From assembly GCA_021788565.1 (NCBI GenBank), contig JAJYKO010000054.1, positions 1-13,286 on the forward strand: a stretch of DNA of 13,286 bases, given 5' to 3'. The stretch is from Chloroflexota bacterium. Its GTDB lineage: Bacteria; Chloroflexota; UBA6077. This document shows positions 1 through 13,286 of this stretch, piece by piece. The position numbers and the translations under genes are program-made. The notes beneath the pieces were generated by a model. The model did no database searches, was not told the DNA's origin, and was given only the letters and a program-made list of their open reading frames with translations. The first letter of the stretch is position 1. Every line of letters starts with the position of its first letter.

Positions 1-4
1 AGTG

Positions 5-1171
5 CTATCGCGAGATCGGGGCGAGCGCTGGGTCGTAGTTCGCCTTCTGTCCAAGCACCTCGTCGACGTAAGGCATCCAATCTCCGATGGGGATGCCCTG
101 CGGGCATTTCTCCTCACACTCCCGACACTGGATGCACGCGCTGGCGGGCTTGTTTAGGAAGGCCGCGTACCGGAAACGCGCGACCTCCAGCTGGTCCATC
201 GCTATTCCTCGGTTAAACGTGAGCGTGTTGGTCGGAATGTCGACGCCGTTTGGGCAGGGCATGCAGTACCGGCACTGGGTGCACGGGATCGGATACAGCT
301 CGTCGAACTTGTCGTGAGCCATTGCGACGAGGCGCAGTTCGTCCGCGGTGAGTGAACCGATAGCGGAGCGACCGGCGCTCGAGAGGTTCTCGACTAGCTG
401 GTCCATGGTGCTCATACCACTCAGGACTACCGAGACCTCCGGGTGGTTCCACACCCACTGCAGACCCCACTCCGCGGCGGACCGTTTCCTCTGTGCCCTG
501 CCGAAGATCTGCTGGATCGCCGGCGGTGGGCTCGCGAGCTGTCCGCCGAGCAGTGGCTCCATGACGACCACGCCCAGCCCTTTTGCGGCGGCGTACTGGA
601 CCCCTTTGGTGCCGGCCTGAAGGTCCTCGTCCATGTAGTTGTACTGGACCTGACAGAATTCCCAGCCGTCGTAGCCATCGACGATGGACCTGAACGCCTC
701 ATGGTTGTCGTGAAAGGAGAATCCGAGGTGGCGAATCCGCCCGTCACGCAGGGCCCCCTCCGCCCAACGGGTCACGCCCAGGTCCCGGACGAACTCCCAG
801 CTCTTCTGGTTCAGACCGTGGAGTAGATAGAAGTCGATGTGATCGGTTTGGAGCTTGGCGAGCTGCTCGTTGAGCAAGCGGTCGAAGTCTGCGTGCGCCT
901 CGACGAGCCTGACCGGCAGCTTTGTCGCCAGGTTCGTCTTCTGCCTGTAGCCATCCTGCAGTGCCTTGCCGACGACTCGCTCGCTGTTGCCGCCATGATA
1001 GGGGTAGGCGGTGTCCACGTAGTTCACGCCGCTGTCGATGGCGTGGCGTATCATCCGGATGGCTTCGGGCTCGTCGATCTGACTCGGGTCGCCCAACGTG
1101 GGTAGACGCATAGCGCCGAATCCGAGGGCGGAAACCTGAACGCCCAGCTTGCCAAAGGGTCTGTACTGCAC
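5..1171 (-). CDS. Aldo/keto reductase with C-terminal 2x[4Fe-4S] ferredoxin domain
   Basis: A cytoplasmic 388-residue oxidoreductase. The N-terminal ~280 residues form an aldo/keto reductase barrel that should use NAD(P)H. The usual catalytic tetrad is visible: D53 and Y58 (in VDTAYPY), K84 (in ATKLP) and H118 (in YLLHG). A ferredoxin-like tail follows with two four-Cys sets, C297/C300/C303/C306 and C346/C349/C352/C356, each ending in Cys-Pro as in [4Fe-4S] binding sites. This AKR-plus-ferredoxin architecture is a known but functionally poorly defined family, and the substrate cannot be told from sequence. The start is GTG at 1171, which begins the typical MQYRxFGK.G opening; a GAGAGG lies about 11 bases upstream. 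The gene is divergent from the Fe-S assembly operon, so its two clusters may make it a client of that operon (inference). It looks intact. Confidence 0.93.
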   Translation of the reverse strand: MQYRPFGKLGVQVSALGFGAMRLPTLGDPSQIDEPEAIRMIRHAIDSGVNYVDTAYPYHGGNSERVVGKALQDGYRQKTNLATKLPVRLVEAHADFDRLLNEQLAKLQTDHIDFYLLHGLNQKSWEFVRDLGVTRWAEGALRDGRIRHLGFSFHDNHEAFRSIVDGYDGWEFCQVQYNYMDEDLQAGTKGVQYAAAKGLGVVVMEPLLGGQLASPPPAIQQIFGRAQRKRSAAEWGLQWVWNHPEVSVVLSGMSTMDQLVENLSSAGRSAIGSLTADELRLVAMAHDKFDELYPIPCTQCRYCMPCPNGVDIPTNTLTFNRGIAMDQLEVARFRYAAFLNKPASACIQCRECEEKCPQGIPIGDWMPYVDEVLGQKANYDPALAPISR

Positions 1172-1318
1172 CTGTATCGTTACCTCTCTTTATGCCATCT
1201 TTTGAGGCTCGAACGTTCGCCGGCGCCATGCCGTGGAGGCGGCCTGGGTCGCCGGAGTTGCGGCGTGGCGGCCCGTAGTGTAGCACTTCGAGGCATCGTA
1301 GGAATGCGAACGAGATTG

Positions 1319-1347
1319 TTGACAGGGTGCCTCGACCTCACTATACT
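1319..1347 (+). promoter_or_regulatory. Sigma-70 promoter of the rrf2-nifS-nifU operon
   Basis: TTGACA (1319-1324) and TATACT (1342-1347) are separated by exactly 17 bases. The -35 is perfect and the -10 matches five of six. It points at the Rrf2 gene, with the expected transcription start in the 1353-1358 area and a leader of about 40 bases. This is the strongest promoter-like sequence in the window. Confidence 0.85.
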
Positions 1348-1375
1348 GAATTCCGACGGAATCAGTAGGAATTCC
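1345..1375 (+). promoter_or_regulatory. Probable IscR/Rrf2-type operator overlapping the -10 box
   Basis: Overlapping symmetric elements begin inside the -10 box. The core 1355-1367 reads GACGGAATCAGTA, matching 11 of 13 positions of the E. coli type 1 IscR pattern GACTRWWWYAGTC as I recall it. A wider dyad runs GAATTCCGAC (1348-1357), 7 bases, then GTAGGAATTC (1365-1374), with 9 of 10 positions symmetric. The position across the start of transcription would block RNA polymerase, so autorepression by the adjacent Rrf2 protein is the natural reading. Binding by that protein is inference. Confidence 0.65.
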
Positions 1376-1398
1376 TCTACGATTACACCAGGACTGAT

Positions 1399-1818
1399 AT
1401 GAAGCTGTCGACACGCGGTCACTACGGGCTTCTGGCGATGGTCGAGCTAGCCAGGCGCTACGGACAACCTCCGATCTCACTCTCCGAAATTGCCCAGTCG
1501 GGGGAACTTCCGCTGGCTTATCTGGAGCAACTGTTTGGCGCGCTCAGGCAAGCGGGTCTCGTGGAAGGCACCAGGGGTGTTCGTGGGGGATACAGGCTGA
1601 CCCGTCCGCCCGTAGAGATAACCGTCGGCGAGGTCGTGCGGGTCCTGGAGGGGCCAATCGGCCCGGTGGAATGCGCCATCGAGGGCGAGAACGCCGAGTG
1701 CTGCTCTCGCAGCGCAGCCTGCGCTACCAAGGAGATGTGGCAACGGGTACGCGAGAGCATACTCGAGGTCCTGGATAACACTTCCCTTGCGGACTTTCAG
1801 ATCTCTCCCATAGCCTGA
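1399..1818 (+). CDS. Rrf2/IscR-family Fe-S-sensing transcriptional regulator
   Basis: A 139-residue Rrf2-family DNA-binding protein. The N-terminus MKLSTRGHYGLLAMVELA is the family's first helix. Residues 25-70 form the winged helix, including the SLSEIA...PLAYLEQLF recognition region and the wing GTRGVRGGYRL. The sensor loop carries C92, C101, C102 and C108, compared with C92, C98 and C104 of E. coli IscR. A [2Fe-2S] or similar cluster is therefore plausible, with a wider gap and an extra adjacent Cys. It is the first gene of an operon with a cysteine desulfurase and a scaffold, the usual place for an IscR-like repressor of Fe-S assembly. The ATG has AGGA six bases upstream. A strong promoter and a matching palindrome precede it. 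CymR-like cysteine-metabolism regulators are the main alternative. Confidence 0.93.
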   Translation: MKLSTRGHYGLLAMVELARRYGQPPISLSEIAQSGELPLAYLEQLFGALRQAGLVEGTRGVRGGYRLTRPPVEITVGEVVRVLEGPIGPVECAIEGENAECCSRSAACATKEMWQRVRESILEVLDNTSLADFQISPIA

Positions 1819-1854
1819 CTCAGTCTCGGATCACGACGCGGAAGGAGGCACGCG

Positions 1855-3045
1855 GTGTCGCGTTTCATCTACCTGGACCATGCGGCAACAACGCCGGTCC
1901 ACCCGGCTGTGCTGGAGGCCATGCTTCCCTACTTCACGGAAAAGTACGGCAACCCATCCAGCGTCTACTCTGTTGCGCGGGAAGCCCGGAAAGCCCTGGA
2001 TTGGGCGCGGGACACGGTTGCAGGAATACTTGGTGCTAGTCCGTCAGAGATCATCTTCACGAGCGGCGGTAGCGAGAGCGACAACCTGGCTCTGAAGGGG
2101 ATCGCGTTCGCCAACCAGCAGAAGGGCAACCACATCATTACAACCCAGGTGGAGCACCATGCCATACTGCACACCTGCGAGTATCTCGAGAAGCGGTTCG
2201 GTTTTCGCATCACTTACCTGCCGGTGGACGAGAACTGCGTGGTCGACCTTGATGCCCTGGAAAAGGCGATAACTCCGGAGACCATCCTGGTCAGCGTGAT
2301 GTACGCCAACAACGAAGTGGGTACCGTGCAGCCGATCGAGGAGATCTCGCACATCCTGAGACACCGCGGCGGGATCGCCTTCCACACGGATGCGGTCCAG
2401 GCAGGGGGAAGTCTCGATCTGAACGTGGACAAGCTCGGCGTCGACATGCTGAGCCTCTCCGCTCACAAGTTCTACGGCCCCAAGGGCGTCGGGGTGTGCT
2501 ACGTTCGGAAGGGAACCACCTACTGGCCACAGCAGCAGGGCGGCGGCCAGGAGCGAGGCAGGCGAGCCGGCACCGAGAACACGGCCGGCATTGTGGGGCT
2601 GGCAACGGCTCTGAAGCTGGCCTACGAGCAGTTGGAGTCTAACAACACCCACGCTGCAATGATGAGAGATCGGCTGATCGAGGGCATCAGGCCGATCCCG
2701 GGCGCCTATCTGACAGGCCATCCGACCAACCGACTCCCCAATAATGCAAGCTTCGTCTTCGACTACGTGGAGGGGGAGTCGATCTTGCTCAGCCTGGACA
2801 TGCTGGGCATTGGGGCCTCCAGCGGGTCGGCCTGCACCTCCGCCACTCTGGAGCCGTCTCACGTGCTTAAGGCTATGGGAGTGCCGATCGAGAGAGCGCA
2901 CGGCAGCCTTCGCCTTACCACCGGACGGGACAACGTCGAAGAGGATATGGACCGCGTCGTTCAGGTCCTGCCCGGGATCATAGATCGGTTGCGAGCAATG
3001 TCTCCCCTGGCCGGCTCCGCTGCCGGGTCAGGGGCAACCCAGTAG
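1855..3045 (+). CDS. Cysteine desulfurase, NifS/IscS type (class I)
   Basis: A 396-residue PLP enzyme that removes sulfur from cysteine to give alanine and a persulfide used for Fe-S cluster building. It starts with the family signature [12 protein letters not shown]. Visible residues are the H101-H102 pair, D179 and Q182 around PLP, Schiff-base lysine K205 in [10 protein letters not shown], and the persulfide cysteine C327 in [17 protein letters not shown]. The long IscS/NifS-type active-site loop places it in class I rather than the SufS class. The GTG start is chosen because AGGAGG lies six bases upstream and the N-terminus fits the family exactly. It lies 36 bases after the Rrf2 gene and 22 bases before the scaffold gene, so all three are probably one transcript. 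The last ~15 residues are a low-complexity Ala/Gly/Ser tail. IscS and NifS cannot be separated by sequence alone. Confidence 0.96.
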
Positions 3046-3067
3046 AATCAGCGAGGAGCAGGAGCGG

Positions 3068-3445
3068 ATGTACAGCGAACTGGTGATGGAGCATTTCAGC
3101 AACCCGCGGAATGTGGGTGAGATCGCGGATGCGGATGGTATTGGCGAAGAGGGTAATCCCACCTGCGGCGACATTATGAGGATCTACATCAAGGTGAAGG
3201 ACGGGCGCCTCGCGGACGTGAAGTTCAAGACGTTCGGTTGCGGCGCGGCCATCGCCACCAGCTCCATGGTCACCGAGATGGTCATGGGCAAGACCCTCGA
3301 TGAGGCAATGGAGATATCCAACAGGGCCGTGGCCGAGGCTCTCGGGGGCTTGCCGGCTGTGAAGATGCACTGCTCCAACCTCGCCGCCGACGCCCTCCAC
3401 AAGGCGATCGAGGACTTCCGCTCGAGGTCGGGGGACAGGGGATAG
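3068..3445 (+). CDS. Fe-S cluster scaffold protein, IscU/NifU N-terminal type
   Basis: A 125-residue scaffold on which [2Fe-2S]/[4Fe-4S] clusters are assembled from sulfur delivered by the upstream desulfurase. The cluster ligands are all present: C33 and D35 in NPTCGD, C58 in FGCGAAIA, and H101-C102 in KMHCSNLA. The LPAVK motif just before the last Cys corresponds to the LPPVK chaperone-recognition motif of IscU. The length is that of a stand-alone IscU, without the ferredoxin and C-terminal domains of full NifU. No HscA/HscB, IscA or ferredoxin gene follows, so the operon is a minimal regulator-desulfurase-scaffold set. The final residues run into a G-rich tract that continues past the stop codon, so the tail may have been extended by the adjoining repeat. 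GGAGCAGGAGCGG lies just ahead of the ATG. Confidence 0.95.
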   Translation: MYSELVMEHFSNPRNVGEIADADGIGEEGNPTCGDIMRIYIKVKDGRLADVKFKTFGCGAAIATSSMVTEMVMGKTLDEAMEISNRAVAEALGGLPAVKMHCSNLAADALHKAIEDFRSRSGDRG

Positions 3446-3474
3446 GGGATAGGGGACGGGGGTCAGGACCACCG

Positions 3475-3555
3475 AACAGGATGGGCAGGATGAGAAGAAG
3501 TTGCTGGTAGACCTACTGACCGTAGGTATACCCTGTTCATCCTGCCCATCCTGTT
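3475..3555. repeat. Nested inverted repeat (REP/BIME-like) between convergent genes
   Basis: Perfect 19-base arms lie at 3475-3493 and 3537-3555 (left arm AACAGGATGGGCAGGATGA). The 43-base interior holds a second hairpin with 9 of 10 paired positions: 3507-3516 against 3522-3531, loop TGACC. G-rich text upstream (from about 3430, with GGGGATA twice and GGGGTCAGG) and C-rich text downstream (to about 3589, with CCCCTGACCCC) add loose outer complementarity. It fills the gap between convergent genes, where extragenic palindromes are common, and could act as a two-way terminator or mRNA stabiliser. There is no poly-T tract, so it is not a classic intrinsic terminator. Confidence 0.85.
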
Positions 3556-3591
3556 TCTGTTCCCGGTTCCCCGTCCCCTGACCCCTGCGGC

Positions 3592-4641
3592 CTAGCCTTC
3601 GTAGCCGTCCAGAGGCTGGCCGTCAACCCAGATACGGGGATTGGTCATCAGCATGTCGTAGTGGGTGATGGCCGGCAGGTCGTGGTCGTAGTTCGAGCCG
3701 ATGGCGATGTGGCAAGTGCCGCCCACCTTCTCAGCTTCCAGCATGTCCGGTACCATGGTGGCCGCGGGGTTGAGCCCCAGCCCCACCTCGCCCACGCCCC
3801 AGCTGTTGCGTGCGTAGTCCGGTTTCCCCATGGCCAGTGACTGCTCCTCTCCCTCCTTGAAGGCGGCCACCACCTCCGCCGAGTGGGCGCTGGGCAGGAC
3901 GCGCATGATGTAGCCGGCCTCCACCTCCATCGCAATCGGCTCGCTGGGGATCGAACACTCCGCTCCCGCGGCGATCACGCCGTCGAAGACGATCTTCCCT
4001 CGTGCTGTTCCCAGCTCTGGCGAGAAGAAGATCTCCCCGCACGGCAGGTTGCCGTGTTCACCCGGCGCCCGCAGGTCACCGTCGTCCAGGAAGATCCGTC
4101 GCCCCCGCAACCCCACGGTGATGTCGGTACCAGCCGCGGTCGTGATCCGCATCTCGGATCTGCCCTCGATCAGATCCCTCAAGGCTCTTGCCCTTCCGCG
4201 GATGGCGTCGTAGTCCACGTCCATCGCGCGGAGGAAGGTGTCCATCTTGATGCCTGGTGAACTGCCGACTCTGATTCGCTTGTCCGCTTCCAGTTTGTCG
4301 ATGATGTGGTCGTAACGCCTGCAGTCTCGGCCTACGTAGCCGATGTGCAGTCCGTACGGGTCCTTCCCGATCTTCTCCGTCGAGATGCTGAGGACCACCT
4401 CCGGCTCAGTGGCGAGCGCGGCCAGCACCACGGGGTCTGAGAACTCCGTGATGGCCCTGGTGGTCTGTCTGATAAGCAGGGGCTTTCCCCCCATGTCGAC
4501 GCTGGCCTGGAAGTACGCGTCGGAGATCAAACTGGACGTCTCCTCGGGGTTCCCCACGATGAGCACGCGCTCACCCGGTTGAAGCCCGATGGCTTTCTCC
4601 AGGACGGTCCTGGCAATGGCCAGCAATCTCTCGTTCGGCAT
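3592..4641 (-). CDS. M29-family (thermophilic type) metallo-aminopeptidase
   Basis: A 349-residue cytoplasmic metallopeptidase that should remove N-terminal amino acids using two metal ions. Residues matching the M29 metal and catalytic set (AmpS/AmpT type) are E203 in NLPCGE, E285 in GVGEVGLG, H311 and Y318 in HIAIGSNY, and H327/D329 in THYD. The H-to-Y spacing of seven and the HxD pair match the family. It is somewhat shorter than the ~400 residues common for M29 members. The ATG at 4641 has GAGG seven bases upstream. It lies 65 bases downstream of the OYE-family gene on the same strand and is probably cotranscribed with it; a shared role in amino-acid or peptide use is only a guess. It converges with the Fe-S operon across the 3475-3555 repeat. 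Confidence 0.88.
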   Translation of the reverse strand: MPNERLLAIARTVLEKAIGLQPGERVLIVGNPEETSSLISDAYFQASVDMGGKPLLIRQTTRAITEFSDPVVLAALATEPEVVLSISTEKIGKDPYGLHIGYVGRDCRRYDHIIDKLEADKRIRVGSSPGIKMDTFLRAMDVDYDAIRGRARALRDLIEGRSEMRITTAAGTDITVGLRGRRIFLDDGDLRAPGEHGNLPCGEIFFSPELGTARGKIVFDGVIAAGAECSIPSEPIAMEVEAGYIMRVLPSAHSAEVVAAFKEGEEQSLAMGKPDYARNSWGVGEVGLGLNPAATMVPDMLEAEKVGGTCHIAIGSNYDHDLPAITHYDMLMTNPRIWVDGQPLDGYEG

Positions 4642-4706
4642 AGTCCTACCTCGTTACGCAGCGCTGCTAAACGGATTGTCCCACAGAGGGGGCTCGAGCC
4701 TCAAGT

Positions 4707-5894
4707 TCAGCGCTTTCGGCCGAAGCAGTGAACGCCATCGCCATCGGCTACGCTTACGAGGCATCGGTTGCAGGAAAGGCAGCTGGACGGGCGCAGGTCG
4801 CCGTCCTGAAACCGCCTGACCAGGTTTGGCTCGCGCAGGAAAGGCCGTGCCATGCTCACCAGGTCCACCCGGTTTTCCATGAGGAGCCGGTCCATCATCA
4901 AGGGAGAACGAAGCCCGCCCACGAGCATCACCGGTATCTCAGTGGTGCGCTTGATCTGCTCCGCGTAGGGAGCAAAGTAAGCTTCCTCGAATCCTACTCG
5001 GCCTCGCATGGTAGCAGCAACCGCCTTGATCAACATCCTGATCACCGTCCCTCGCGATTTCAGCAGCCGGCTCCGAAGTATCTGGTCGATGGGGATCTCT
5101 CCTCGGCTCATCTGGAAGAACGATTCCAACGTTCCACCCGTAACCTCGATCGCATCGACGCCCGAGGCCGCGACGGACTGGGCTATGATGAGCGATTCCT
5201 CCGGTCCTAGACCTCCCCGAACGAAGTCCCCGACAGTTAGCTTGACCAGAAGGGGAAAGTCAGGACCCACCTCACGTCGGACGGAACGCACGACCTGTAG
5301 AAGGAACCTCATGCGGTTGACCAGGTTGCCTCCCCATTCATCGTTACGATGATTGCTTCGGGGCGACAGAAACTGGTTGATGAGATACCCGTTGGCTGCC
5401 AGGATCTGCACTCCGTCGAAACCTGCTGCCCTGGCTCGCGCGGCGGCGGTTCCGAAAGCCTCCAGCATGGAAGCTATGTCGGCGGACGTCATGGCTCTTG
5501 GGCGGTGCCGGACGAGTCGGTCGCTGATCGCCGAAGGGGCCAGCAGAGCTCCACCCGCGGCTTCCGCCTCGCCCTGCCGGCCGCAGTGGTAAAGTTGGAG
5601 GACTATCTTAGAACCCCGCTCGTGCACTGCGTCGGTGAGAAGCATGAGTTCCCGAACCGATTCGTCAGTGTCGACTCCGACCACCCCGATGTAGGAGCGC
5701 CCGGACGGGTGGACGTATGCCCCGCCTGTTATCAGCAGGCCGATGTTACCCGCCGCCAGACGAGAGTAGAGGGCGATGAGGCGGCGCGTCGGCTCTCCGT
5801 CGGGGCCCGCCATGCATTCCGCAGTGGCTGACCTGACGATCCGATTCTTGAGCTGCAGTGTCCCGATCGAGAAGGGGGCAAAAAGACCGGGCAT
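4707..5894 (-). CDS. Old Yellow Enzyme-family NADH:flavin oxidoreductase, His-lacking active site
   Basis: A 395-residue FMN-binding barrel protein of the OYE family. Family landmarks are the start MPGLFAPFSIGTLQLKNRIV, SATAE near residue 23, LYHCGRQGE near 101, the phosphate/substrate segment NGYLINQFLSPRSNHRNDEWGG at 168-189, and VGGLRS near 325. OYE enzymes reduce activated C=C bonds using NAD(P)H. In the usual active-site pair (His...Asn or His...His), the first position is Leu165 and only Asn168 is kept. The C-terminus carries C372, C375, C378 and C390, close to the 2,4-dienoyl-CoA reductase Fe-S motif, but the second flavin/NADH half of that enzyme is absent. The ATG has GGAG seven bases upstream. 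Its own promoter lies about 100 bases upstream and it leads the M29 aminopeptidase gene. The substrate is unknown. Confidence 0.88.
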   Translation of the reverse strand: MPGLFAPFSIGTLQLKNRIVRSATAECMAGPDGEPTRRLIALYSRLAAGNIGLLITGGAYVHPSGRSYIGVVGVDTDESVRELMLLTDAVHERGSKIVLQLYHCGRQGEAEAAGGALLAPSAISDRLVRHRPRAMTSADIASMLEAFGTAAARARAAGFDGVQILAANGYLINQFLSPRSNHRNDEWGGNLVNRMRFLLQVVRSVRREVGPDFPLLVKLTVGDFVRGGLGPEESLIIAQSVAASGVDAIEVTGGTLESFFQMSRGEIPIDQILRSRLLKSRGTVIRMLIKAVAATMRGRVGFEEAYFAPYAEQIKRTTEIPVMLVGGLRSPLMMDRLLMENRVDLVSMARPFLREPNLVRRFQDGDLRPSSCLSCNRCLVSVADGDGVHCFGRKR

Positions 5895-5992
5895 ACTGGC
5901 GCTCCGTTCCTTTGTCCGCCGGCGACCCGTAGAAGCCTGTCCGGCGGGGACCCATAGACGTCGACGATCTTCATGCCACCGTTGTCCTGCTT

Positions 5993-6021
5993 ATTATTAG
6001 ATGTACCTACTCGAGAGTCAA
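5993..6021 (-). promoter_or_regulatory. Sigma-70 promoter for the OYE-aminopeptidase pair
   Basis: Reading the minus strand, TTGACT (complement of 6016-6021) and AATAAT (complement of 5993-5998) are separated by 17 bases. Each matches five of six consensus positions. It sits just after the stop of the last cytochrome gene (6037) and gives a leader of about 90 bases before the OYE-family ATG at 5894. This separates that pair from the cytochrome operon upstream. Confidence 0.72.
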
Positions 6022-6036
6022 GATGCCCGGGCCATC

Positions 6037-6480
6037 TCAGTTCCGGGGCGCGCCAGAGTCGATCCATCGGGCCAGGATGTCGATTTCGGCGGGAAGCAGT
6101 TTGGTGCTGTCGTGGGGCATGGTCCCATTTCTGATCACCGAGACCATTGCACTCAATGAGGAGTCTCCCGGTATCAGTATCGCGCCGTAGGAGTCGCCGG
6201 CCATTATCCGCTGGTAGCTATCCAGCCTGAGACCCTTATCAGCCCGATACGGACCGTGGCACCTGAAACAGCTCCGAGTCAAGATGGGTACCACGTCGGA
6301 GGTGTAGCTGGGCACGCCATTTCCCGACCTGGCCATCGCGCTCCCCGTGCCAGCCGCTGCCGGGGCCTCCAGCAGCGGCTGGGCGAGGACCAGAGTTGCC
6401 GCTATCACGACGATGGCTACGGCCAGGGCAAGCCCCCAATGACGGGCTCGCCCGCCGGGTGAAGTACCAAGGTTCTCCAT
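6037..6480 (-). CDS. Membrane-anchored monohaem cytochrome c (Planctomycete-type Cyt c domain)
   Basis: A 147-residue protein with an uncleaved-looking N-terminal membrane helix (about 15-36) and a periplasmic domain. It has one haem c site, C71-x2-C74-H75 in PILTRSCFRCHGP, and a likely Met ligand M121 in NGTMPH. The sequence around the haem (VVPILTRSCFRCHG...KGLRLDSY, later GDSSLSAMVSVI) resembles the PSCyt1/'Planctomycete cytochrome C' domain. It is the last gene of the cluster, 10 bases after the heptahaem gene, so it is very probably cotranscribed. As a single-haem anchored subunit it could pass electrons between the complex and a soluble acceptor or terminal oxidase (inference). The ATG lies behind a weak GGGAA. 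Confidence 0.86.
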   Translation of the reverse strand: MENLGTSPGGRARHWGLALAVAIVVIAATLVLAQPLLEAPAAAGTGSAMARSGNGVPSYTSDVVPILTRSCFRCHGPYRADKGLRLDSYQRIMAGDSYGAILIPGDSSLSAMVSVIRNGTMPHDSTKLLPAEIDILARWIDSGAPRN

Positions 6481-6490
6481 GGCATTCCCG

Positions 6491-7588
6491 CTAGTTGGCT
6501 GCCGAGAATAGATATTCCACTATCGCCTTGATCTGCTGGTCGCTGAGGGGGCCGCCCTTGGCTGCGCCGAAAGCCGGCATTCCTCCCTTGCCACCGGCGG
6601 TGGTGCTGGCCAGCGCCGCGGCTCCGTAACCCTGGAGGAAACTCTTGCTGTTGAGCTTGGCGACCGGGATCATGTCTCCACCCGGGCCGTGGCACGGGGA
6701 GCACGTCTTGGCAAAGAGGGTCTTGCCTTCACTTAGAGCCTGGGTATCCACCGCGGGAGCCTGTGTAGCTGGAGGCTTTGTCGCCGTGGCTGTCGGGGCC
6801 GTCGCAGCCGCCTGCGGGGCGGACTTCGTAGCTATCGCTGCCGGCGCAGGTGTCTGACCTGCGGCCGGGGGCAACGTAGGGCTCTCGGTCGCGGTGCTGG
6901 TAGGTAGCGAGGTTGGCGCCTGCGTGGCTTGTGCCGTGGGCGGGGAGACCGGCTTCCTCCCCACCAACTCCCTGTTCGGCGCCGGTGCGGGAATGTTGTT
7001 GCCGTGGCATTTCGAGCATGGGTCTGAGCTTGAATGACAGGTGAGACACGTTTCCATCCTGGGCCGGTTCGTCCTGGGCTCGCGAAGGTCGTGGGCAACG
7101 TCGGCGTGACAGGTTACGCACGTGGCTCCCCGAGACAGGTGCGCGCTGTGATTGATTATGATCCCACGAACGTTAAATTTGAAGCCACTATTGTCGGTCT
7201 TCTGAAGCATGGCCTGATGGCAGCGAATGCAGTTGGCGCTAACCCACTCGGGTTCGGCCTGGAATCCCTTTACATATCCCTCGAATACGATCTGGCCGGG
7301 TTTGGCGTGGCAGTCAACGCAGCTCACCTGATCGAAGCTGGGATGCACAACTGACGGGACGCTGCGATCGGGCGTATCGCCCGTGCCGTGGCATCTGAGA
7401 CAAAAGGCCGAGTTCGAGGTTGTGTAGTGCGCCAGCACGACACCGGGCACACCTACCAACGGAATGGCAGCGACGAACGCTATCACAAGCCAGAACCAGA
7501 CCGGCCAGTGAGGGAACCGGCGTCGCCGGGGATAGAGCCCTGGTATCTCAAGGTTGTCAGGAAGGCGGGACGGTTCTGGAAGCTTCAT
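6491..7588 (-). CDS. Membrane-anchored heptahaem cytochrome c: NapC/NirT-like head, six-haem region, Pro/Ala/Thr linker, C-terminal class I cytochrome c
   Basis: A 365-residue protein with one membrane helix (about 29-53) preceded by RRRR, so the rest is periplasmic. Six CxxCH haem sites lie at C63, C90, C120, C157, C181 and C191. A ~75-residue Pro/Ala/Thr-rich linker (about 205-280) follows. A class I cytochrome c domain then carries the seventh site, CSPCH (C296-H300), with likely axial Met M337 in GGMPAF. The first part resembles NapC/NirT and other multihaem quinol-cytochrome electron carriers. AGGAG seven bases before the ATG supports the start. It is 13 bases after the molybdopterin-subunit gene. 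Its role is probably a wire from the membrane complex to the mobile-domain haem and onward. The flexible linker suggests a swinging electron-delivery domain (inference). Confidence 0.92.
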   Translation of the reverse strand: MKLPEPSRLPDNLEIPGLYPRRRRFPHWPVWFWLVIAFVAAIPLVGVPGVVLAHYTTSNSAFCLRCHGTGDTPDRSVPSVVHPSFDQVSCVDCHAKPGQIVFEGYVKGFQAEPEWVSANCIRCHQAMLQKTDNSGFKFNVRGIIINHSAHLSRGATCVTCHADVAHDLREPRTNRPRMETCLTCHSSSDPCSKCHGNNIPAPAPNRELVGRKPVSPPTAQATQAPTSLPTSTATESPTLPPAAGQTPAPAAIATKSAPQAAATAPTATATKPPATQAPAVDTQALSEGKTLFAKTCSPCHGPGGDMIPVAKLNSKSFLQGYGAAALASTTAGGKGGMPAFGAAKGGPLSDQQIKAIVEYLFSAAN

Positions 7589-7601
7589 CTTGCCACTCCT
7601 A

Positions 7602-9878
7602 TCACAGAGCCTCGACCTTTACCCTCGTGTCCATCCATACCAGCCCGCCCCCTCCGTCTGCTCTCTTGGGAGATAACAGGGAACTGGCGTTAACGCCGTT
7701 CCCCTGGTCGTTCCACCAGATGTACTCGGTCATCACGTCGCCGCTCTTGAACTGCTCACCCATGGCGACTCGTCCCAAAGCGCTGTGGCCGAAGCCCAGT
7801 GCGATGGCAACCACGTCCGGATGTATCCCCTGGGTGATGCTGACCGCGACTTCCAGGGAGCCTGCCTGGGACGTAAGCCTTACGCGCTGCCCCTCCTTGA
7901 TGCCGCGCTGCTGTGCCGCCGTGGAGTGCATGAGCAGACTGTTCTCGTGGGAGATCTCCGCCAGCCACCAGCAGTTGGCCGAGTAATCTCCCGAGTGGAC
8001 GTTTGGCCGGTAGGTCACCAGGGTCAGCTCTCCGTTGTCGCCTCGTCCGACCGAGACTGGCGCGGCCTGTTCGGTGCCGAACAGGTCTCTCGCGTCCGCG
8101 ATGGAGCTCAGACGTAACTTGCCGGAGGGCGTCGCAAGGGTGCCACCGGGCGGCAGATATTGAGGGCTCTTTCCGGTGTCGTACCAGGCTCCCTGCTCTT
8201 TCAGCAGAGCAAGTCCTGGCTCACCAAGTCCTGGGACTTTGGAAATCGTCTTGCTGACGAAGCTCTCGACGGTTGGGAAAGGGAAGAACTGAGCTGCCTG
8301 TCCGGACAGCCTGGTGCCCATGGTCAGGATCACGTCGTCTACGCTAAGGGAGTCGCCGCGCGCCCGCACGATCGGTTGCCGAAGCGCAGCGTAAGGCACC
8401 AGCTCCTGCGCCGGGGGAGATTCTAGTCCCCAACTCTCCAGGTAGGTCGCGGCTGGTAGGAATAGGTCCGCCAGCGATGAGGTCTCCGTGAGGTTGGTAT
8501 CCAGCGCAACAAGATAAGGCACGCGACTTTCGTCCAGCAACGCCTGCCGGTACGTTTCCGCACCTGGCCACGAGTAAGCGGGATTGGCCATGGCCGTCAT
8601 ATACATGCTCACCCTTCTGTTCCCATTGAGAAACTCCTGCACGAACTGAAGGGCTTCCGAAGTACTGAAGGTCTCAGCAGGAACCGGATCCGGCTCAGCG
8701 AACGAGACGCTGGATGCGGGCGCGTACCCCCCAGGTGTCCCGATGGCGCCGACCAGGGCGTTCAACAGCAGCACGGCTCGCTGAGAGTCCACTCCTCCGG
8801 TCTGGCGGCTGACGCCACCGCCCGACACGGCTACCGCAGGTCTGACACTGGCGAACTCGGTTGCGATACGGCGCACTGTTTCAGGGGCGATCCCCGAGGC
8901 AGCTGCGGCTGATTCTGGGGTGTGCCGTGCGAGCTGTGCCGTGAGCTCCTTCTCCCCGATGTCCGCCCATTTGGCAAGAAACTGCCTATCGTGGAGGTTC
9001 TGTTGCAGGATAACGTTAGCCATGGCCAGGGCGATGATCCCGTCGGTGCCTGGTACCAGAGGCAACCACTCGTCGCTGCGACCGGCGGTAAATGACAGCC
9101 GAGGGTCGAGAGTGACAAGCCGTGCCCCCCCCATCCTCGCGTCCACCAGCCTCTGGACAAAAGGCAAGTAAGCCGGATGGTTCTCGTAGGGGTTGCCGCC
9201 AAAATTGAGGATGTACCGTGCTCGTCCTATGTCCGTGACTTCAGAAGGGGCCCCGAGCACGGCACGGTTGGCTGCCTCACGGCTGGCGTCCTGGATGCTG
9301 GCCTCGTCGATGAAGGCCCGCGACCCGACGGCGGCCACGAGTCTCCTGCCCAGCATGGCTGTGGCCTCGGTCCCGGTGTGCAGAACCAGGGAATCGGGCT
9401 GCCGCGCCTGTACATCCTGGAATCGTTCATCGAGGAGTTTGTAGGCGTCTTCCCAGGAAATCTGCGTCCACTTACCCTCACCGCGTTTGCCGGCCCGCTT
9501 CATAGGAGCGAGCACGCGGTCGGGATCGTAAAGACGATTGATGCCGGCATGACCAAGTGCGCACAACCTTCCGCGGCTGTTCGGATCGCGGGGATTGCCT
9601 TCGATCTTTACCAGCCGCTCCTCTTCCAGGAAGCCGAGGATGCCGCACCTGGCAGTGCACAACGCGCAGTTGCTTACCACGGACCGCTGGGTCTGCCCAG
9701 TCGTCCGAGATACCGAGCGGCCGCCGCGGATGAGATCCTCTGCCAGGGCGGCCTTTCCAGCTACTATGCCGGAGGCCGCCATGGCCGTTCCAGCGGCGAC
9801 CAGCTTGAAAAGTTGCCGCCTCGTGAGCCTGAAGCTTGCGTCGTCAGCAACGCAATCGGGGTCAACTGAGCGGAACAT
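7602..9878 (-). CDS. Tat-exported molybdopterin oxidoreductase catalytic-type subunit (CISM family) with Gln at the Mo-ligand position
   Basis: A 758-residue DMSO-reductase-superfamily large subunit. The N-terminus has a twin-arginine signal (LTRRQLFKL then a hydrophobic stretch, R20-R21), so it should be exported folded. A [4Fe-4S] site follows: C71, C74, C78 and C106 (CxxCxxxCx27C). The four molybdopterin-fold domains continue to a C-terminal dinucleotide-binding barrel (from about residue 635; NVHSGDYS, RVRLTSQAG). In the segment where polysulfide/thiosulfate reductase-type enzymes have the Mo-binding Cys (SxxCxAS), this protein reads ASIQDAS with Gln196. I chose the ATG at 9878 because GGGGGA lies five bases upstream; a TTG four codons earlier (9890) is the alternative. 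The gene overlaps the end of the NrfD gene. The substrate cannot be named. Confidence 0.92.
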   Translation of the reverse strand: MFRSVDPDCVADDASFRLTRRQLFKLVAAGTAMAASGIVAGKAALAEDLIRGGRSVSRTTGQTQRSVVSNCALCTARCGILGFLEEERLVKIEGNPRDPNSRGRLCALGHAGINRLYDPDRVLAPMKRAGKRGEGKWTQISWEDAYKLLDERFQDVQARQPDSLVLHTGTEATAMLGRRLVAAVGSRAFIDEASIQDASREAANRAVLGAPSEVTDIGRARYILNFGGNPYENHPAYLPFVQRLVDARMGGARLVTLDPRLSFTAGRSDEWLPLVPGTDGIIALAMANVILQQNLHDRQFLAKWADIGEKELTAQLARHTPESAAAASGIAPETVRRIATEFASVRPAVAVSGGGVSRQTGGVDSQRAVLLLNALVGAIGTPGGYAPASSVSFAEPDPVPAETFSTSEALQFVQEFLNGNRRVSMYMTAMANPAYSWPGAETYRQALLDESRVPYLVALDTNLTETSSLADLFLPAATYLESWGLESPPAQELVPYAALRQPIVRARGDSLSVDDVILTMGTRLSGQAAQFFPFPTVESFVSKTISKVPGLGEPGLALLKEQGAWYDTGKSPQYLPPGGTLATPSGKLRLSSIADARDLFGTEQAAPVSVGRGDNGELTLVTYRPNVHSGDYSANCWWLAEISHENSLLMHSTAAQQRGIKEGQRVRLTSQAGSLEVAVSITQGIHPDVVAIALGFGHSALGRVAMGEQFKSGDVMTEYIWWNDQGNGVNASSLLSPKRADGGGGLVWMDTRVKVEAL

Positions 9879-10911
9879 CTTGTCCCCCAATGACCACGAC
9901 GTAGCGCATGGCCAGGATCCCCAGCATCACCAGGAGCGAGGCGAGGACGGTTGCCGGTAATGGCCTGTGGTGGCGAGGGATACCCTGGACAAGGAGTGGC
10001 ACGAAGGCGGCCAGCATTATCGGGATGCCGATCGGCGTGACCGGAACGGAGCCCATGTAAACCAGGGAGGCCCCGAGTGTGGGCGGAGCGAGGAGTGAAG
10101 CGGCGCGTGCCAGCAAAGGTGAGGGCGCCGTGAGTAGCGCCAGTGGAACGAGGGACCCGGAAAGGATCTCCACCCCCAGGAAGTACCTGCTGAACCCTCC
10201 TCGCAGGATCATCGTCGCGGCCTCGCGCGCTTCGGTATCGGACGTCAGCAACACCAGGACGTCGGAGAACACGAGGAAGAGGTCCAGCGCGATGGACGCC
10301 GCCAATATCTTCCCCAGATCCTGGATGAGCGGCATGTTCGGCCGGCGTTCCTTGGAGACGAAGCCGGCTATGGTCACTACCAATATCATCAGGGCTATGC
10401 CCGAGACCATGGCCGAGACCAGGAACAGGATCGGCATCAGAGCCGTATTCCAGAGAGCTCTGGCTTTAGCCAGCGCCATTATGAAGCCCGTGTAGCCGTG
10501 CACCGACACCGCCAGGGGGATGCCGATGAGGCCGAACAGCTTTGTCATCTTTTCGTTGCCCCTGAACATGAAGAAGGCATAGATCAGGCAGTTCAGGGGA
10601 TAGAGGGTCAGCAGGAAGCTGCCGTATGTTATGGGCGAAGTCGGGTTAAGGTACGGGAAGAGGTGCCAGAATCTCCAGGGCTGACCGAGATCGGCGATCA
10701 GATTGATTGGAGCCAGCACCAGCAACACCACCGCCAGGACGATTCCGATCTTCCCCAGAGGCCTGAACTTCTTGATGCCGAAGCCGTACGCAAGGGTGGA
10801 CAGGATAAAGGATCCCGCGCTGAGGCCGGTCATGTAGAAGTAAACCGCTATCAGGGGACCGAGGGGCGCCGCGTGGGGAACGTTGTAAAGGATGGTCAAC
10901 CCGTCGTTCAT
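9862..10911 (-). CDS. NrfD/PsrC-family integral membrane quinone-binding subunit
   Basis: A 349-residue polytopic membrane protein with about eight to ten hydrophobic helices. It is of the NrfD/PsrC family that anchors CISM complexes and handles quinone/quinol exchange. Landmarks are GLSAGSF in the first helix region, DLGQPWRFWHL near residue 75, HGYTGF near 138, and the C-terminal MRYVVVIGGQ typical of PsrC-type proteins. It is a single NrfD copy, whereas alternative complex III has two (ActC and ActF). The ATG overlaps the stop of the ferredoxin-subunit gene (ATGA type, 10908-10911). Its own end overlaps the start of the large subunit by 17 bases, so the three are translationally coupled and probably stoichiometric. 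Direction of electron flow is not decided by sequence. Confidence 0.93.
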   Translation of the reverse strand: MNDGLTILYNVPHAAPLGPLIAVYFYMTGLSAGSFILSTLAYGFGIKKFRPLGKIGIVLAVVLLVLAPINLIADLGQPWRFWHLFPYLNPTSPITYGSFLLTLYPLNCLIYAFFMFRGNEKMTKLFGLIGIPLAVSVHGYTGFIMALAKARALWNTALMPILFLVSAMVSGIALMILVVTIAGFVSKERRPNMPLIQDLGKILAASIALDLFLVFSDVLVLLTSDTEAREAATMILRGGFSRYFLGVEILSGSLVPLALLTAPSPLLARAASLLAPPTLGASLVYMGSVPVTPIGIPIMLAAFVPLLVQGIPRHHRPLPATVLASLLVMLGILAMRYVVVIGGQDVPLS

Positions 10912-11504
10912 GCCCGATCCTCCTCACTCGGGCCTGTGGCCCGCATGAGCGCTTCATCCGCGCCGATGTAGAACACCCGGGGCCGCGTGTCCTTGTCGGG
11001 CTTCAGGACCGCGACCGCGTTGCGGGCCAGAAGCGTCGATACTTCGCTGTTGGGGTCGTTTAGGTCGCCGAAGATCATCGCGCGGGTCGGACAGCTGTTC
11101 ACACAGGCCGGCTCCAACCCGGCGTCGACCCTGTGGTAGCACCAATAGCACTTCTGGACGATCCTCTTGATTGGGTTCAGATAGCGGACGTCGTACGGGC
11201 AGGACGCTATGCAGTACTTGCATCCTATGCAGCGGTGCGGGTCCACCATCACGATACCGTCCTCCCGCTGGTACGTAGCCTGGGTGGGGCAGTTCCGGAT
11301 GCAAATAGGACTTTCGCAGTTGTTGCAGAGAAGGGGCAGGAAGGAGACACCCACGTTGGGGTAGCGACCCTTCTCTCCTATCTTGACCCAGGTGCGCCAC
11401 ACGCCGGGTGGAACCGCGTTCTCAGCCTTGCATGCAACCGAGCAGGCGTGACAGCCTATGCAGCGCCGGACATCTATCACCATGCCGTACCTTACCTTGG
11501 GCAA
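10908..11504 (-). CDS. Four-cluster ferredoxin-type electron-transfer subunit (PsrB/DmsB/NrfC-like)
   Basis: A 198-residue iron-sulfur subunit with sixteen Cys in four sets: C15/18/21/25, C60/63/68/72, C92/95/98/102 and C119/122/134/138. This is the full complement for four [4Fe-4S] clusters in the DmsB/PsrB/NrfC family. It should link the NrfD quinone site to the cluster in the molybdopterin-fold subunit. There is no signal peptide of its own; such subunits are usually carried out with the Tat-exported large subunit. The start is TTG at 11504, supported by GGAGG six bases upstream and by the family N-terminus KVRYGMVIDVRRCIGC; an ATG at residue 7 is the alternative. The gene overlaps the NrfD gene and lies 81 bases downstream of the slipin gene. 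Confidence 0.94.
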   Translation of the reverse strand: MPKVRYGMVIDVRRCIGCHACSVACKAENAVPPGVWRTWVKIGEKGRYPNVGVSFLPLLCNNCESPICIRNCPTQATYQREDGIVMVDPHRCIGCKYCIASCPYDVRYLNPIKRIVQKCYWCYHRVDAGLEPACVNSCPTRAMIFGDLNDPNSEVSTLLARNAVAVLKPDKDTRPRVFYIGADEALMRATGPSEEDRA

Positions 11505-11585
11505 CGGACTCCTCCAGCATGCTGACGGCTCTCAGCCATCAGGAGTTTGGCCATCGAGAAGGAGACTCGATTTTCTCTGAACCGG

Positions 11586-12371
11586 TCACCCGATTGCCGC
11601 CTGCAGGCCCGCTACCGCGGCACCGATGGCTCCTTTGACTCCGTCGGCCCGGACGATGTCCAGCGGCAGCGGTATGATCGTACTGTTGTGCTCGCCGGCG
11701 ATCTCGGTGAGAGTCTGCAAATAGCGGAGCTGGAGGGCGCCAGGTTCCGTACCGATGATCCGTGCCGCGTCGGCGAGAGTGGCGGCCGCCTGAAACTCGC
11801 CCTGGGCATGGATGATTTTTGCCCTCTTTTCCCGCTCGGCCTCAGCTTGCTTCGCCATCGCCCGCTGCATGGGCTCTGGAAGCTGAACGTCCTTGACTTC
11901 CACGACGCTGACCTTGACGCCCCACGGCTCCGTCTGCTCGTCGATGATGTGCTGGAGCCGACGGTTGATCTCCTCCCGATGTGAGAGGAGTTCATCCAGC
12001 TCCGACTGGCCGAGTACGCTCCGCAGAGTGGTCTGAGCGATCTGTGAAGTCGCACGGATGTAATCCAGTACACGGACGACGGCGGTCTCCGGGTTGACCA
12101 CCTTGAAGTACACGACGGCGTCAACTTTGATGGTGACGTTGTCTCGAGTGATGACCTCCTGAGGTTCCACCACCATGGTGACCACGCGCATGTCCACACG
12201 AACCATTCGGTCCACCACCGGAATTATCAGGTTGAAGCCGGGATTTCGAATCCCCATGAACTTCCCGAAGCGGAATATCACACCGTGCTCGTACTGCTGC
12301 ACTACGCGGATCGCCAAATAGATGAGGACGAGAACCACAACGGCAGCTATGGTCCAAGTGAAGATCTCCAA
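11586..12371 (-). CDS. SPFH-domain membrane protein, slipin/stomatin type
   Basis: A 261-residue membrane scaffold protein. An N-terminal hydrophobic helix (about residues 3-24, [19 protein letters not shown]) leads into the SPFH/band 7 domain ([11 protein letters not shown]...[19 protein letters not shown], then [19 protein letters not shown]). An Ala/Glu/Lys-rich coiled-coil segment follows ([28 protein letters not shown]). Slipins form oligomeric membrane rings linked to membrane-domain organisation and protease control. I chose the TTG at 12371, directly before the membrane helix, because a full AGGAGGTG Shine-Dalgarno lies just upstream. A GTG at 12419 would add 16 residues but has no such site. 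No NfeD partner gene is adjacent, although slipins are often paired with one. It precedes the redox operon on the same strand and may help assemble or hold that complex (inference). Confidence 0.9.
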
Positions 12372-12482
12372 CCTTGCCACCTCCTCCAGCAAACGTTCCA
12401 GTTGAAGCGAGCGAGCCACGCGCGGGCCGGAGGGCTATGGACCGCCGGCGGGTGAGTGGGTCCTCTGCACATAGAGGAAGCA

Positions 12483-12545
12483 TAGACAGGGGGATGTTAC
12501 AGCCGCGTAAATTCGAGGTGGGGCGTTGTTACAGTGGTGTGACAG
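12483..12545 (-). promoter_or_regulatory. Cluster of four CTGT-type heptamers, Pho-box-like, upstream of the slipin gene
   Basis: On the minus strand, CTGTCAC (12539-12545) and CTGTAAC (12528-12534) start exactly 11 bases apart, the spacing of a Pho box (CTGTCAT N4 CTGTCAT). CTGTAAC recurs at 12496-12502, and CTGTCTA lies at 12483-12489, 13 bases on. The block begins right after the response-regulator stop codon and is followed by the slipin gene. OmpR/PhoB-type regulators bind such direct heptamer repeats, so control by the adjacent regulator is plausible but unproven. Confidence 0.5.
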
Positions 12546-13241
12546 TCAGTGCGGAGAGGGCATGGTGTAGCCTACGCCCGGCTTGGTGATAACGTACCGG
12601 GGGATGGCGGGCTCGGGCTCGATCTTCTGTCGGAGCCGCCGCACGTACACCCGGAGAACCTCGGGCTCGTCCCTGTACTCGGCACCCCAAACTAGCTTGA
12701 GCAGCTCCTCCTGCACAAGCACCCTGCCGGCGTTCGTGGCTAGCTGGTAGAGCAGTTTGTACTCGGTGGGACTCAGCCCAACCTCTCGACCCTGCGCAGT
12801 CACGATTTGCCGGGCAAAGTCGATCAGTAGCTCTCCGAGGGCGAACGGCGGGGCCAGCCGCCTGGGCTGCCCGAGGTTGCTCCGTCGGAGTTGCGCCCTG
12901 ACCCTGGCGAGCAACTCCTCGGCGTCGAACGGCTTGGTAATGTAATCGTCGGCTCCCAGATCGAGTCCCCGCACTTTGTCGATCTGCTCCCGCCTCGCGG
13001 TAACCATTATGATCGGCACTGTGGAAAACTCGCGTATTCGCCGGCAAACCTCGTAGCCGTCCAGGTCCGGGAGCATGAGATCAAGGACTACCAGGGCAGG
13101 GTCCTCTGACTCGGCCTTCTCCAGAGCGGCGGTTCCGTCTGGAGCTGAAACCACTCGATAGTCCAGGGACTCCAGATTGGCCCTCAGGAGCCGTACGTAG
13201 CGCGGCTCATCGTCCACCACCAGCACGGTTTGACGGTTCAT
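12546..13241 (-). CDS. OmpR/PhoB-family two-component response regulator
   Basis: A 231-residue transcription factor. The receiver domain (about 5-118) has the acidic pocket D10-D11, phospho-acceptor D54 (VVLDLMLPDLDGYEV), switch T81 (MVTARRE) and K103 (ITKPFDAEELLARV), so it should be phosphorylated normally. The winged-helix domain (about 133-230) has LSPTEYKLLYQLATN, the recognition helix EPEVLRVYVRRLRQKIEP, and the wing YVITKPGVGYTM. The overall look is PhoB/KdpE/MtrA-like. The ATG at 13241 is preferred: it starts the typical TVLVVDDE opening and has GGAGG and AAAGG upstream. An in-frame ATG at 13271 would add ten basic residues. No histidine kinase gene is in the window; it may lie upstream beyond 13286. 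Pho-box-like repeats follow directly in the spacer to the slipin gene. Confidence 0.95.
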   Translation of the reverse strand: MNRQTVLVVDDEPRYVRLLRANLESLDYRVVSAPDGTAALEKAESEDPALVVLDLMLPDLDGYEVCRRIREFSTVPIIMVTARREQIDKVRGLDLGADDYITKPFDAEELLARVRAQLRRSNLGQPRRLAPPFALGELLIDFARQIVTAQGREVGLSPTEYKLLYQLATNAGRVLVQEELLKLVWGAEYRDEPEVLRVYVRRLRQKIEPEPAIPRYVITKPGVGYTMPSPH

Positions 13242-13286
13242 CCTTTCTGCCCTCCTGCTTGGTCGCTTCATTAGCTCCGGCGGAGC

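Follow-up and report, generated by a model that had tools for sequence, protein, structure and literature searches.

What does an operon make when it encodes the parts of a molybdenum reductase, has lost the residue that holds the metal and adds two cytochromes? The question is raised by five genes on the reverse strand of a Chloroflexota contig (JAJYKO010000054.1, assembly GCA_021788565.1), of which positions 1 to 13,286 were analysed (hereafter the window). We consider it probable that the product of the operon, at 6037-11504, is a five-subunit quinol:cytochrome c oxidoreductase that functions in the manner of alternative complex III (ACIII), yet is a separate complex derived from the complex iron-sulfur molybdoenzymes (CISM) and not an ACIII member. 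The genes, in order, are as follows.

10908..11504, minus strand: four-cluster iron-sulfur (Fe-S) subunit of PsrB/TtrB/NrfC type (198 aa, 16 Cys; open reading frame [ORF], Pfam Fer4_11)
9862..10911, minus strand: NrfD/PsrC-type membrane subunit (349 aa; Pfam NrfD, 150 bits)
7602..9878, minus strand: molybdopterin-fold large subunit (Pfam; ATG at 9878 as in homologs)
6491..7588, minus strand: multihaem membrane cytochrome (365 aa, 7 CXXCH motifs, one N-terminal transmembrane segment; Pfam NNT, C7, CBB3)
6037..6480, minus strand: monohaem cytochrome of PSCyt1 type (147 aa; Pfam)

Pfam assigns each of the five subunit classes above cut-off, and a large subunit, a four-cluster protein and a membrane anchor are encoded together, as in the CISM superfamily. 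Neighbouring genes overlap by 4 bases and then by 17 (with the large subunit begun at ATG 9878), and gaps of 13 and 10 bases follow; the large-subunit ORF (7602-9890) is open to a TTG at 9890, and the ATG at 9878 is common to homologs. An earlier reading of the DNA without database searches (the sequence-only reading) had given this gene order with overlaps or gaps of no more than 17 bases, and all five ORFs were recovered with agreeing Pfam classes. It had also proposed that the two halves of ActB are separate genes beside one NrfD, and the Fe-S protein and large subunit are indeed distinct ORFs, with a single NrfD within 6037-11504. Both of its cytochrome genes are present, but its multihaem gene turned out to encode six haem motifs fused to a monohaem cytochrome c domain; its monohaem fifth gene can be described more precisely as PSCyt1-type.

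Cluster site, metal ligand and pocket of the large subunit

Three sites of the large subunit are referred to below.

9816..9821, minus strand: twin-arginine pair in LTRRQLFKL, likely twin-arginine translocation (Tat) signal (from the sequence)
9561..9668, minus strand: FS0 [4Fe-4S] site, Cys75, 78, 82 and 110 (alignment of 121 rows)
9291..9293, minus strand: Gln200 codon, where PsrA-type enzymes have the Mo-ligand Cys (alignment; hypervariable column)

Counts for the ligand, FS0 and pocket positions cover the window protein and its 120 best matches, a list that includes P0001 (100% identity), taken as the window protein itself. The four FS0 positions are Cys in 119, 119, 119 and 120 of the 121 rows, the remainder being gaps. 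At the metal site, SLCTAP of Thermus PsrA, whose Cys we take to be the Mo ligand, aligns to SIQDAS in the window, so that Gln200 replaces the PsrA Cys. Only one of the 120 filled rows (P0080) has Cys in this column (one row is a gap), which is the fifth most variable of 688 well-filled columns. Because the ligand column is hypervariable and Cys so rare, a Mo substrate chemistry common to the family is unlikely. A retained cluster site and a lost Mo ligand had both been read from the single sequence, and both extend to the family. LTRRQLFKL, which we take from general knowledge to be a Tat motif, would likely put the large subunit on the periplasmic side.

The cofactor pocket was compared with that of ActB from ACIII. 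D262, G281 and D283, at cofactor-type positions, are invariant in 121/121 rows and absent from 5/5 ActB rows. D475 is also invariant in all 121 rows, and position 112 is Lys or Arg in 115 of the 121, with Leu in the window. G387, P479 and E485 are invariant in the family too, but since 4, 5 and 5 of the 5 ActB rows keep them they are not diagnostic of the cofactor. Over 112 Mo-enzyme consensus columns (measured with 32 of the 120 matches), the window family keeps 79% and the five ActB rows 33%, a comparison that is independent of the references' own scores; those scores (80-92%) are inflated because the columns were defined by the same twelve reference rows, four of which fall in the clade that holds the window family.

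The large subunit thus appears to be a former molybdenum enzyme in which the metal-holding residue is gone and the cofactor pocket looks kept. It may even still bind a bis-pterin guanine dinucleotide cofactor, with or without metal and with neither protein ligand nor substrate, acting with FS0 as an electron wire or structural element that joins the Fe-S chain to the six-haem cytochrome, although we hold this idea as tentative and rather doubtful. If true, a molybdopterin cofactor would have changed from catalyst to relay in an analogue of complex III, an intermediate that ACIII and Qrc left behind.

The same residues could instead belong to a still active Mo or W enzyme without a protein ligand, one that oxidizes a sulfur or arsenic compound and passes the electrons to the cytochromes. 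Arsenite oxidase is a Mo enzyme of this ligand-free kind. The four invariant D and G residues, the Lys/Arg at 112 and the 79% of columns kept are in line with such an activity, as are Cys-ligand relatives in the same clade, one of which (L003) lies near ars genes. However, residues vary almost at random at the ligand position, where conservation would be expected of an active site that works without a ligand, and the window proteins scanned include no TorD-type chaperone, whereas a TorD gene lies beside the L003 operon; we consider this activity distinctly unlikely. An ordinary Psr/Phs-type reductase was rejected, as the ligand is lost in the family and the protein scores 321 bits on the PhsA model (cut-off 694). 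The window set differs from PsrABC/PhsABC in the lost Mo ligand, the added cytochromes and a tree position outside the PhsA rows.

Relatives with gene context came from a search of 299 genomes (phylum of G001), 82 of which had some match at 1e-60. The 20 best and 15 lower places were fetched, the rest, including the partial strong matches G078:C153 and G228:C226, being left unplaced, and five ACIII loci were added from the 6 of 200 genomes matching TIGR04519. None of these fetched loci (35 places and five ACIII loci) belongs to the window family. Three neighbouring kinds emerged. The Cys-ligand rows (L003, L042-L046) have Cys at the ligand column. The nine penta rows (L032-L040) share with the window the large-subunit clade, the loss of the Mo ligand and a membrane multihaem cytochrome downstream, but differ in the loss of the third FS0 Cys, a different, five-haem module, proximity to cytochrome cd1 and a separate loss of Mo. 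The five hepta rows (L041, L047, L048, L051, L076) have lost FS0 and are followed by a five-haem module to which two more haem domains are fused. L003 (7893-10532 on plasmid pAZKH of Azoarcus sp. KH32C) combines its Cys-ligand large subunit with Fe-S, NrfD and TorD-family genes; the set adjoins ars genes and a PhnD-like/kinase/sigma-54 regulator set, and the third FS0 Cys is absent.

Cytochromes, quinone site and electron flow

The sites that bear on electron flow are listed here.

6989..7411, minus strand: six-haem module, CXXCH at 63, 90, 120, 157, 181 and 191 (near-constant spacing in relatives)
6494..6742, minus strand: fused monohaem cytochrome c domain with Met337 (Pfam Cytochrome_CBB3; alignment)
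10636..10692, minus strand: NrfD Asp74 (ADLGQP) and Ser92 (SPITYG), at the places of proposed quinone-site residues (alignment with ActC-type rows)
9904..9906, minus strand: NrfD Arg336 in the last helix, where a gate residue has been proposed for NrfD-like subunits (alignment)

In close relatives of the multihaem cytochrome the spacing of the six-haem motifs (27, 30, 37, 24, 10) is nearly constant and the tails are variable; the window tail is one Met-type cytochrome c domain. With a haem motif counted as C, 2 to 4 residues, CH, the 86 matches of at least 270 aa (of 104) have 7 motifs in 34 cases, 9 in 22, 11 in 8, 8 in 5, and 10, 6 or 16 in 3 each, while 8 others span 2 to 23. A nearly constant module with variable tails is as expected of an outlet fitted to different acceptors. 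Six relatives (P0271, P0301, P0307, P0329-P0331) are long-tailed, with 10, 14 or 16 haem motifs. Met337 and Pro338 are invariant in 39 aligned rows (38 of the 104 cytochrome matches were used in the alignment). An invariant Met in such a domain is the usual mark of a His/Met haem, and Met337 is likely the axial haem ligand. The separate monohaem cytochrome has its CXXCH at 71 and a hydrophobic N-terminal segment at 15-33.

The 16 Cys of the Fe-S subunit form four groups of four; its gene has a TTG start preceded by GGAGGAG, and its best NCBIfam model is TtrB (226 bits, below the cut-off of 416). In NrfD the residues at the quinone-site and gate places are kept, which we count in favour of a quinol complex; the equivalence of Asp74 and Ser92 is by motif, the aligned rows being ActC-type and without the R. 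marinus ActC sequence. Quinone-binding and gating roles for these places are proposed in the account of PMC8076601, and the gate role is questioned for QrcD in that of PMC13059093. Relative to aligned 301-aa relatives, about 49 residues are inserted ahead of the last NrfD helix, possibly forming one or two extra helices.

In the quinol:cytochrome c oxidoreductase that we favour, quinol would be oxidized at the P-side site of NrfD (Asp74, Ser92), and electrons would cross the four clusters of the Fe-S protein and enter the six-haem module, perhaps via or around the large-subunit FS0. From there they would reach the Met-type cytochrome c domain of the fusion and its monohaem partner, both of which would hand them to a periplasmic acceptor. 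The large subunit would no longer reduce a substrate and would serve as a scaffold, possibly as a relay carrying FS0. We infer the direction of flow, the acceptor and energy coupling through NrfD. Quinol oxidation is favoured because the exit end has Met-type cytochrome c domains like ActE, described as a His/Met haem protein of +165 mV (PMC5928083), as would suit an outlet of high potential, and because a separate sister lineage of similar layout has a cytochrome cd1 gene close by. A cd1 protein is encoded in the fetched stretch of 8/9 penta loci and in 0/32 of the other fetched loci compared; seven are 76-100% identical to the L033 protein (L033 included; Pfam Cytochrom_D1, 408 bits), that of L034 is at 48%, and L035 ends at a contig start. 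This placement suggests that electrons from quinol are delivered to a reductase in the periplasm, and the penta operon may be a dedicated quinol-to-NirS route in denitrifiers.

Electrons could also run the other way, from periplasmic cytochromes through the six-haem module to quinone at NrfD, as in Qrc. QrcABCD has the same class composition, with a six-haem cytochrome, a separate Mo-less large subunit, an Fe-S subunit and one NrfD (PMC8076601, Table 1), and among the families listed for the window large subunit the QrcB model ranks third, at 225.7 bits. All NCBIfam Qrc models nevertheless stay below cut-off (QrcB 225.7/440, QrcC 127/400, QrcD 32/570 bits), the QrcB score is unspecific (L049, which passes the PhsA cut-off, scores 186), and the presence of cytochrome c parts, fused and separate, with a conserved Met hints at an end of high potential. 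The window set further differs from Qrc in its extra cytochrome c domains and in keeping the FS0 site, whereas QrcB is described as being without any cofactor (PMC13059093, PMC10772276). A cytochrome c:quinone reductase seems unlikely to us.

In a further alternative, the complex would be a quinol dehydrogenase whose long haem tails supply electron transfer outside the cell or at its outer surface (metal or mineral reduction). Some relatives have 11, 14 or 16 haem motifs, and ACIII-like clusters have been proposed for iron reduction in MBNT15, according to the account in PMC9386147. The window version, however, carries a single fused cytochrome c domain with a small monohaem protein as partner, and no outer-membrane conduit gene lies among the 13 window proteins scanned (13 kb in view), which makes such a role very unlikely here.

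Several points weigh against the quinol:cytochrome c oxidoreductase. The 13 window proteins scanned include no oxidase, cytochrome cd1 or other acceptor; the cd1 link is that of a sister lineage with a different cytochrome and not of the window family; and Qrc, of similar composition, runs in the opposite direction. Close relatives were available as proteins only, without a gene neighbourhood, and the structure model of the cytochrome is poor (predicted local distance difference test score, 68), too weak for fold search or comparison, haem order and docking.

Known complexes and the origin of the family

ACIII and Qrc are described as complexes of like composition that work in opposite directions (PMC8076601, PMC13059093, PMC6303296). 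With ACIII the window operon shares a multihaem membrane cytochrome, a molybdopterin-fold subunit without Mo ligand, a four-cluster Fe-S part, an NrfD-type quinol subunit and a monohaem cytochrome. Separate ActB1 and ActB2 and a five- or six-haem ActA are on record for ACIII (PMC9386147), and PMC10732223 reports metagenome-assembled genomes (MAGs) from a tunnel that hold a six-gene ACIII-like cluster, ActD included. The architecture alone is thus already known; what is new is a separate lineage, a kept FS0 and an intact-looking pocket with a randomised ligand. An ActB1-type large subunit would be expected to lack both FS0 and the Mo ligand, whereas the window protein keeps FS0 and loses the ligand alone. 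Its Fe-S protein has 16 Cys for four four-Cys clusters, whereas ActB is listed with one [3Fe-4S] cluster in PMC8076601. Neither ActD nor ActF is encoded within 6037-11504, which is filled by five genes with one NrfD (the rest of the genome is not in view). The multihaem cytochrome gives a weak local match to the ActA chain 6lod_A (E 6.9e-9, best stretch 143-215), and its haem spacing is unlike that of the ActA rows. L067, L072, L073 and L074 are ACIII-like loci with separate ActB1 and ActB2; their ActB1 proteins keep four FS0 cysteines with no Cys at the Mo-ligand column, and trees group these loci with ActB/ActC.

A CISM large subunit with a putative bis-molybdopterin guanine dinucleotide site within a larger complex is also described for the organohalide respiration complex of Dehalococcoides (OmeA-OmeB-HupX; PMC10772276). 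That complex has hydrogenase and dehalogenase partners and neither cytochromes nor quinones, and its OmeB is reported to group with HybB/QrcD; OmeA was compared by description only.

In the free large-subunit tree, a quick search with long branches flagged, a branch with 99 support in the Shimodaira-Hasegawa-like approximate likelihood ratio test (SH-aLRT) sets off 40 rows, among them the window family, the Cys rows, penta and hepta. Within it the window family is one group (97), and penta, hepta and L003/L042 form another (100). The ActB rows fall apart from the window clade in this tree (the same branch of 99), and when E. coli DmsA, PhsA and an Azospirillum row are included, PhsA, DmsA and other Mo rows lie across a branch of support 90. 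By these trees the large subunit groups with Cys-ligand relatives of no assigned named enzyme, outside the PhsA, DmsA and ActB rows. The first trees and the ACIII-added tree drop L060, L063, L065, L069, L072 (near-duplicates) and L077 and hold 19 of the 120 matches; the DmsA/PhsA tree leaves out all ActB/split-ActB rows and L063, L064, L065, L069, L071, L075 and L077 and holds 15.

A single origin of all Mo-ligand-less, cytochrome-coupled large subunits of the clade was rejected. The constraint costs 96 log-likelihood units (approximately unbiased test, p 0.0001), or 91 units with DmsA, PhsA and Azospirillum added (p 0.0002), with p 0.00003 when ACIII rows are included. Under the model used, this supports at least two separate events of Mo-ligand loss among cytochrome-coupled sets. 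In the Fe-S tree, penta, hepta and L003/L042 group together (97/98), as do ActB and split-ActB (100/100), and the window has no settled place; joining it to the penta/hepta rows was rejected (p 0.005), and joining it to L043-L045 was not (p 0.35). A clade of window plus ACIII was rejected for none of the large subunit (p 0.109), Fe-S protein (p 0.311) and NrfD (p 0.314).

The NrfD trees speak against a simple two-origin story. Unlike the large-subunit and Fe-S trees, the first NrfD tree places window, penta and hepta together (85/82), and with more references the ActC and split-ACIII NrfD rows join this group (83/90). Both flag long branches that meet; the first left out the 1494-aa L059 frame and the larger one ActF rows and L059, and 17 of the 120 NrfD matches are included. 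Modules may have been exchanged between lineages, or the deep NrfD branches may be unreliable.

The sequence-only reading had offered an evolutionary intermediate or a parallel invention of a quinol:cytochrome c oxidoreductase. We favour the parallel type; the operon lacks tested features of ACIII and so is not counted as a member, and both membership in ACIII and descent from it are left unproven. The phylogenies that it had called for separate the large subunit from the ActB rows, with the sister relation to ACIII still allowed (p 0.11), and the placement outside the PhsA and DmsA rows gives no home in a characterised reductase family with an intact Mo site.

If this is correct, the operon adds a family of Mo-ligand-less, cytochrome-coupled quinol complexes, so far from metagenome sequences, and another respiratory stand-in for complex III. 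The route from molybdenum reductase to cytochrome-coupled quinol complex would have been taken more than once within one clade, and a stage with the pocket intact by sequence and the ligand gone would make the origin of ACIII-like complexes testable.

Distribution, linkage and surroundings of the operon

Named matches of the window family come from Chloroflexota, Dehalococcoidia and Thermodesulfobacteriota, with close ones from Chloroflexota MAGs (P0015, 61%; P0131, 79%; P0140, 79%). Some are labelled thiosulfate/polysulfide reductase chain A at source, and sulfur metabolism may be wrongly assigned in genomes with such names. Linkage was assessed by the longest contig of each cluster among the 120 large-subunit, 120 NrfD and 104 cytochrome matches listed. 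Exact contig sizes are common to large-subunit and NrfD matches in 20 cases, to large-subunit and cytochrome matches in 16 (one being the window's own, 16,073), to NrfD and cytochrome matches in 14 and to all three in 5, while control sizes shifted by 1 to 13 bases gave 0-2 per pair. This suggests, on the basis of common contig size and not of gene order, that relatives carry these genes together.

Elsewhere, a genome contig scan gave one distant locus (27%) and a viral contig scan two distant loci. Among plasmids the best large-subunit match is at 34% (Azoarcus) and that of NrfD at about 30% over 58%, with no match to the window cytochrome. No description of this five-gene family was recognised in searches of open-licence papers.

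The operon is separated from the adjacent genes by spacers of 142 and 81 bases. Downstream lies an old-yellow-enzyme type oxidoreductase; an SPFH protein and a response regulator are encoded upstream, and these flanking genes give no explanation of the operon. A promoter and terminator scan of the window stayed at chance level. A few kb from the operon, on the opposite strand (1399-3445, plus), an Fe-S assembly set consists of consecutive genes for an Rrf2 regulator, a NifS-like class V aminotransferase and a NifU-like scaffold. At 5-1171 (minus strand) the window encodes an aldo/keto reductase with a C-terminal dicluster ferredoxin domain.

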